Source: Gloeobacter violaceus PCC 7421
GTDB taxonomy: Bacteria; Cyanobacteriota; Cyanobacteriia; Gloeobacterales; Gloeobacteraceae
DNA: 64,000 nt
Direction of reading: 5' to 3'
NCBI RefSeq assembly: GCF_000011385.1
Contig: NC_005125.1
Span: 4,526,001 to 4,590,000 of the forward strand
Under the pieces are notes generated by a model. It did not search any database. It saw nothing but the letters and a program-made list of their open reading frames with translations, and was not told where the DNA came from. The position numbers and the translations under genes are program-made. Shown here one piece after another: positions 25,330-25,813 of this stretch. Within the stretch, counting starts at the first letter, position 1. Each line of letters begins with the position of its first letter.

Positions 25330-25533
25330 CTACTTGCTTTCGATGGTCACCAGCGCCAGGGCCGCCATCCCCAGGACCGCCGAGAGCAACGCGCGGGCCG
25401 GTTCGGCGGCGGGAAGCCACTGCGACCAATCGGTATTCAGCAAGGCAAGGGCCGTGGTCCCCAACAGCGCCGCCTTCAAAGAAAGCCAGCGCCGCTCCAG
25501 GGCAATCAGTACACGCAAAGTCGACTTGTCCAT
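25330..25533 (-). CDS. Small membrane protein under operator-embedded promoter
   Basis: 67 residues from ATG 25533, preceded by GGGAGGGG. An N-terminal basic stretch (MDKSTLRVLIALERRW) is followed by two short hydrophobic segments (LKAALLGTTALALL and LLSAVLGMAALALVTI), consistent with a membrane hairpin. No family is recognised. Its promoter (TTGACA-16-TATAAA, 25589-25616) contains two copies of a palindromic site, so expression is probably tightly repressed and induced by a specific signal. The reading frame continues upstream through the promoter, which rules out the longer version. Confidence 0.65.
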   Translation of the reverse strand: MDKSTLRVLIALERRWLSLKAALLGTTALALLNTDWSQWLPAAEPARALLSAVLGMAALALVTIESK

Positions 25534-25564
25534 GACCCCTCCCGATCGCCCAACCACTGGGCTG

Positions 25565-25609
25565 ATGCAACAATTTGCATATCGATACTTTATAGGCAAA
25601 TTGTTGCAT
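25565..25609 (-). promoter_or_regulatory. Paired palindromic operator TGCAACAATTTGC inside a promoter
   Basis: ATGCAACAATTTGC (25565-25578) recurs as its exact reverse complement at 25596-25609, with 17 bases between. Each copy is itself a near-palindrome of the form TGCAA-N4-TTGCA, so these look like two dimer sites 31 bases apart, about three helical turns. One copy fills the spacer of the promoter at 25589-25616 and the other lies just past the predicted start point, the classic layout for repression. The cognate repressor is not identified. Confidence 0.7.
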
Positions 25610-25616
25610 ATGTCAA
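25589..25616 (-). promoter_or_regulatory. Near-consensus promoter of the 67-residue membrane protein gene
   Basis: On the minus strand TTGACA (25611-25616) and TATAAA (25589-25594) are separated by 16 bases. Transcription would begin near 25582, about 50 bases upstream of the ATG at 25533. A consensus -35 box with an operator in the spacer implies strong expression when derepressed. Confidence 0.7.
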
Positions 25617-25813
25617 GGGATGCGTGGATGGTGGGCGCTAGAGCTTGGGAGCCGCCCATCGGGCTGCCCCTGGGCTACATTGGGGAAGGCTGCGGCACGG
25701 TTTTTCCTTGAGACGCTAGATGTGGAGAAATTCAAAGCTGGGATACTAAATGTGCCCCAGGCGTGGTAGAGTGGGGCCGTTCAGCCAGGCGCAACACTTC
25801 TAGAGAGACACCC

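Follow-up and report, generated by a model that had tools for sequence, protein, structure and literature searches.

Paired AphA-type operators tie a probable small membrane protein of Gloeobacter violaceus to a candidate PadR regulon with an exporter and a monooxygenase-like gene

Of the systems already described, the closest to the one considered here is AphA, the quorum-sensing regulator through which Vibrio cholerae controls virulence and competence. The AphA study (PMC6855506) assigns the protein the ChIP-seq motif ATGCAA-N4-TTGCAT and reports that it shuts RNA polymerase out of one promoter and binds co-operatively to paired sites at two others; operator consensus, polymerase occlusion and co-operative binding to paired sites are also the features that the Gloeobacter system would share with it. 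The differences lie in the linked genes, which here encode an exporter and monooxygenase-like proteins, and in the layout of the operators, which here flank the -10 element, are often mirror copies, and stand 27-35 bp apart.

Two ligand-responsive repressors, LmrR with lmrCD and Bacillus PadR with padC, offer a second comparison, in that a PadR protein is again found beside transporter or detoxification genes. Self-regulation, of the same kind as that proposed below, is reported for LmrR (PMC3506622). LmrR belongs to PadR subfamily 2, whereas the AphA type is subfamily 1, and the canonical site of other PadR proteins is given in the same paper as ATGT/ACAT, unlike ATGCAA-N4-TTGCAT.

The third relevant system is the DevBCA ABC exporter, with which the devB and devC genes of the Gloeobacter PadR locus agree in exceeding the NCBIfam cut-offs of TIGR02971 (devB, 374.5 bits) and TIGR01185 (devC, 538.2 bits); an ABC-ATPase-like ORF (L005:2339-3127) follows them, with Walker A and LSGGQ motifs recognised by eye only. 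Gloeobacter is not known to form heterocysts, and the cargo of DevBCA here is therefore not expected to be heterocyst glycolipid. A further difference is that the exporter genes are linked here to PadR operators, while the window (the whole 64,000-nucleotide stretch of G. violaceus PCC 7421 DNA that was analysed) itself holds only the gene for a 67-residue protein. The elements of this locus, and the regulator gene elsewhere in the 4,659,019-bp, single-contig genome, are as follows:

25616-25611, minus strand: -35 hexamer TTGACA, unchanged in the congeners G001 and G003
25608-25595, minus strand: operator 1, TGCAA-CAAT-TTGCC (TGCAACAATTTGCC), within the promoter spacer
25594-25589, minus strand: -10 hexamer TATAAA, predicted from the consensus, with a 16-bp spacer to the -35 hexamer
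25592-25587, minus strand: alternative -10 TAAAGT with an N18 spacer, also possible by sequence
25579-25566, minus strand: operator 2, TGCAA-ATTG-TTGCA (TGCAAATTGTTGCA), overlapping the expected start region
25542-25538, minus strand: GGAGG, resembling a ribosome-binding site
25533-25330, minus strand: gene of 67 codons plus stop, with two hydrophobic stretches in its product, genus-restricted
G000:C1:1533926-1534477: padR gene, divergent from the devBCA exporter genes

The minus-strand sequence bears out the TTGACA-N16-TATAAA promoter of the first-pass annotation, with one palindromic site in its spacer and an inverted copy past the start, operator 2 lying ~4-17 bp downstream of the expected start. 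The distance between centres is 29 bp, correcting the earlier figure of 31 bp, and the description of each site as TGCAA-N4-TTGCA holds for operator 2 but not for operator 1, an imperfect palindrome that ends in TTGCC (one mismatch). Read as ATGCAA-CAAT-TTGC and ATGCAA-ATTG-TTGCAT, the two operators have 13-bp cores that are exact inverted copies of one another. Operator 1 retains TGCAACAATTTG in both G001 and G003 and differs in G001 by a single base, located in TTGCC; operator 2, both promoter hexamers and the ORF are all retained in this congener comparison.

With hydropathy peaking near residues 17-33 and again near 49-65, the 67-residue product is a probable two-helix membrane protein. 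It matched no family in Pfam or NCBIfam, and among 39 genomes searched, its own included, it was found in G. violaceus, G001 (96% identity) and G003 (99%); a profile built from the three sequences was run on 194 genomes of the class and recovered the same three. One further profile match, in G446 (E 4.6e-4), lies within a 752-residue frame and was judged to be due to chance. The start position is kept as ATG, ATG and GTG in the three genomes. Relative to G003, the ORF has five changes in synonymous codons and one in a non-synonymous codon; relative to G001, it has four of each, the start codon included. A longer in-frame ORF of 109 residues, from an ATG at 25659, was rejected because its frame would span the promoter and operators.

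Single sites with at most two mismatches show no enrichment in the window (33 against 30.9 expected). It is the pairing that stands out: one pair with no more than one mismatch in total and starts 20-45 bp apart occurs in the window, compared with none in 100 Markov sequences of equal composition. Genome-wide, the exact 14-bp palindrome is present at 7 places and the 18-bp form, at up to two mismatches, at 10, compared with none for a reversed control pattern. Six of these ten places form three pairs, which take in all four one-mismatch places; the other four, with two mismatches each, are unpaired.

In its own genome the paired palindrome is thus found at three places only: before the 67-residue gene; upstream of a gene for a PF13826 (monooxygenase-like) protein (152.7 bits, cut-off 25), with the two sites 28 bp apart; and between the divergent devB and padR genes, where a 29-bp pair is accompanied by a third, imperfect site. 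In three congeners, ATGCAA-N4-TTGCAT sites are present at the padR/devB and PF13826 promoters, one half-site of the PF13826 promoter of G003 being degenerate. L024 and L025, the stretches flanking the PF13826 locus in the own genome, contain neither an exact site nor a pair at up to two mismatches in total.

Several single sites were also recorded. Two exact ones, L022:2475 and L023:14159, were not counted as regulon members, being without a second operator; at both, a single TGCAACAATTTGCA site is kept in G003 and G001 without a clear promoter, near but not before a secreted-protein-like gene. One TGCAACACTTTGCA palindrome lies ~80 bp upstream of a BlaI-like repressor/M56 peptidase pair (PF03965, PF05569; L006:4113-5544, G000:C1 ~2176111-2177543), and in the leader of psbO (PF01716; L007:3984-4838, G000:C1 ~3899483-3900337) TATTGCAACCATTTGCAATA comes right after a promoter-like stretch, TTAGAATATGAGAG. 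The psbO-leader site is kept in 5 of the 6 family genomes searched, two of which (G002 and G004) are without a close PadR orthologue, and another factor may use it.

The product of the padR gene has 184 residues and scores 54.2 bits against PF03551 (cut-off 27) and 86.2 bits against PF10400 (cut-off 22.4). Its best match in the PDB is AphA itself (1YG2, E 4.7e-35, over residues 1-176), and the presumed DNA-reading helix region is near-identical in the two proteins (GCFWKATHQQIYREL in PadR, GYFWKASHQQVYREL in AphA). The winged-helix domain, the length of ~180 residues, the helical C-terminal domain and the operators at its own locus are those of an AphA-type (PadR-s1) regulator. The window operator is the ATGCAA-N4-TTGCAT motif given for AphA in PMC6855506, and this match is an independent check because the operator had been defined earlier, from the sequence and the genome scan. 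The repressor is therefore best sought, and probably found, in the AphA-type PadR-family protein encoded beside devBCA. The TetR, MarR, ArsR and LacI families suggested by the first-pass annotation are not likely sources of it. That annotation had also left both the target gene and the repressor unnamed; the second half of this statement is probably resolved by the PadR protein.

The same architecture recurs across the phylum. In a scan of 386 genomes of the phylum, a degenerate promoter-plus-operator pattern, allowing one mismatch at most, was matched 47 times, in 44 of the genomes, and its reversed control gave 8 matches. Almost half of the matches (23) adjoin a divergent PadR homologue of ~42-52% identity; two have only a PF13826 gene beside them, and the own genome supplies one of these; one is the window promoter; and 21 are without PadR or PF13826 within ~1.5 kb. 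A second operator, agreeing at 10 or more of 12 positions and lying 27-35 bp on, accompanies 31 of 36 linked promoters compared with none of the 21 unlinked ones; the 36 comprise 25 of the 47 phylum matches, 3 PadR loci from outside that draw, and 8 loci from a named genome collection (L029 and L108 are one locus). That collection yielded 22 exact matches, and all 8 cyanobacterial ones (Nostoc, Gloeocapsopsis) lie between PadR and PF13826 genes. None of the 14 non-cyanobacterial matches, mainly in Bacteroidales, does so; these were set aside, as no PadR or PF13826 homologue was present in the surrounding DNA. Counting against the reading, only 4 of the 9 PadR-homologue loci inspected outside the genus carry the promoter pattern at one mismatch or fewer. 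A PadR-like gene of Nostoc punctiforme, described in PMC7660261 as lowered in an alkane-overproducing strain, was left aside and not linked to the operator.

The linked promoters drive close PF13826 homologues, HlyD-type adaptors, weak PF13826/ABM proteins, RPE65-type oxygenases, an NAD-dependent epimerase-like protein and a DUF2214 protein, as assigned from one example each (two for weak PF13826) run against Pfam and from the others by eye. At L033, L037, L042, L057, L067 and L070, the genes facing PadR across the promoter vary widely (HlyD, RPE65, epimerase-like, DUF2214, ABM-like). With facing genes so varied, it looks as if regulator and promoter formed a reusable cassette.

Within the genus, the promoter is present in three genomes and absent from one, G002, together with padR and PF13826, as a single loss. 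G002 has no 67-residue gene and no PF13826, and its PadR matches are weak and partial (best 2.8e-8). Upstream of the CobO orthologue of G002 (97% identity) the DNA is different and the promoter is missing. This co-absence, a single event in one congener, agrees with a shared regulon.

Taken with the recurrence and conservation of the arrangement, which give good support to the earlier proposal that a repressor controls the promoter of a small membrane-protein gene, these comparisons lead us to regard it as very probable that an AphA-type (PadR subfamily 1) repressor uses both palindromes as operators and controls the 67-residue gene, devBCA/padR and the PF13826 gene. With the same high confidence in the regulon explanation as a whole, the 67-residue protein would be its genus-restricted member.

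A working model can be drawn up from this arrangement. In the absence of inducer, one PadR dimer would sit in the spacer that separates the -35 from the -10 hexamer while a second covers the start region, and with both bound, RNA polymerase would be excluded from the promoter of the 67-residue gene. The targets of PadR would further include its own gene together with devBCA, and the gene for the PF13826 monooxygenase-like enzyme. A small molecule, perhaps a hydrophobic or toxic compound, would bind PadR and release the three units together, whereupon devBCA would export, the PF13826 enzyme would modify, and the 67-residue protein would act in the membrane, perhaps with the exporter. What the DNA and its comparisons show is the operators, their confinement to three units, their conservation and their linkage to PadR genes; that PadR binds and represses there, that an inducer acts on it, and what the 67-residue protein does are inferred from these. 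The full shut-off by a dimeric or tetrameric repressor and the induction by a specific signal that the first-pass annotation had read from operator placement are likewise predictions. On this model, the small membrane protein probably belongs to an inducible response that serves detoxification or export.

Of the competing explanations, the one that survives best, although we consider it improbable, is that another regulator with the same half-site, of MarR, BlaI or other PadR type, controls the 67-residue promoter, its similarity to the devBCA-padR interval being convergent or shared. The own genome does encode two more PadR-like proteins (33% identity) that could share sites, and similar single palindromes precede the BlaI-like/M56 pair and psbO, the latter conserved in a congener without this PadR. 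Those sites are single, however, not paired, whereas the arrangement of a promoter with two operators is tied in many cyanobacteria to PadR homologues of the devBCA-linked type, and the motif equals the one that PMC6855506 gives for AphA.

Granting the AphA-type PadR, it might act mainly as an activator or dual regulator and not as a simple repressor, much as AphA, according to PMC6855506, activates tcpPH in Vibrio in addition to its role as a repressor. This is very improbable for the promoter at hand: both operators cover its core (spacer and start region), a perfect TTGACA should need no activator, and at the Vibrio cqsS promoter AphA sites that overlap the start repress, according to the same text. 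That the inverted repeats are a DNA or RNA structure or the remnant of a mobile element, and not operators, is barely credible, for although the two copies do make a long inverted repeat, operator 1 precedes the expected start, so that its arms and those of operator 2 do not lie within one transcript, and the same arrangement, linked to PadR, stands before unrelated genes, where both its spacing and its centres vary.

Returning to the paired operators of the PadR repressor, we found a feature that was not expected, namely that they tend toward mirror copies even at the non-conserved central bases. In the window the centres themselves are inverted (CAAT in operator 1, ATTG in operator 2). Of 30 pairs entered in a mirror test, 20 hand-chosen ones were used for permutation; L029, L108, L055, L050 and L113 (second operator below 10, or 43 bp on) and several Nostoc duplicates were left out. 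Mean inverted identity over these 20 pairs was 14.6 of 18 positions, compared with 12.57 (sd 0.32) for permuted partners, a mean that 0 of 5000 permutations reached. For the central four bases alone, inverted identity was 2.65 against 1.92 (p 0.0002), and direct comparison of the same bases in the 20 pairs remained at chance level (1.95 against 1.88, p 0.40); relatedness among the loci makes all of these p-values approximate. The devB-padR pair has no mirror centre, agreeing at 1 of 4 central bases.

The mirror tendency may stem from inverted duplication or from a preference for opposed dimers, and the distance between operators, which ranges over 27-35 bp, does not imply a fixed dimer-dimer geometry. 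We offer, as a doubtful but specific proposal to which the inversion of the central bases points, that the repressor reads mirror operators that each have a functional direction, two opposed dimers forming an ordered tetramer across the -10, and that the 67-residue protein serves the co-regulated DevBCA exporter as a small accessory subunit or as a sensor.

Judged by titles in the open-access literature, we found no report of this operator in cyanobacteria and no usable report of expression in a padR mutant. Regulator, operator and exporter are of known kinds, and what is new, as far as those titles show, is the regulon and its small member. An orphan operator gains a named candidate regulator and a concrete regulon made up of an exporter, a monooxygenase-like enzyme and a small membrane protein, and the inducer and the function of both the PF13826 and the 67-residue protein become directly testable. 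Gloeobacter is an early-branching cyanobacterium, and the comparison suggests that Vibrio and cyanobacteria share an AphA-type operator code and place very different genes under it. If the mirror operators and the ordered tetramer are real, they would amount to a new architectural rule for AphA-type regulators throughout the cyanobacteria.
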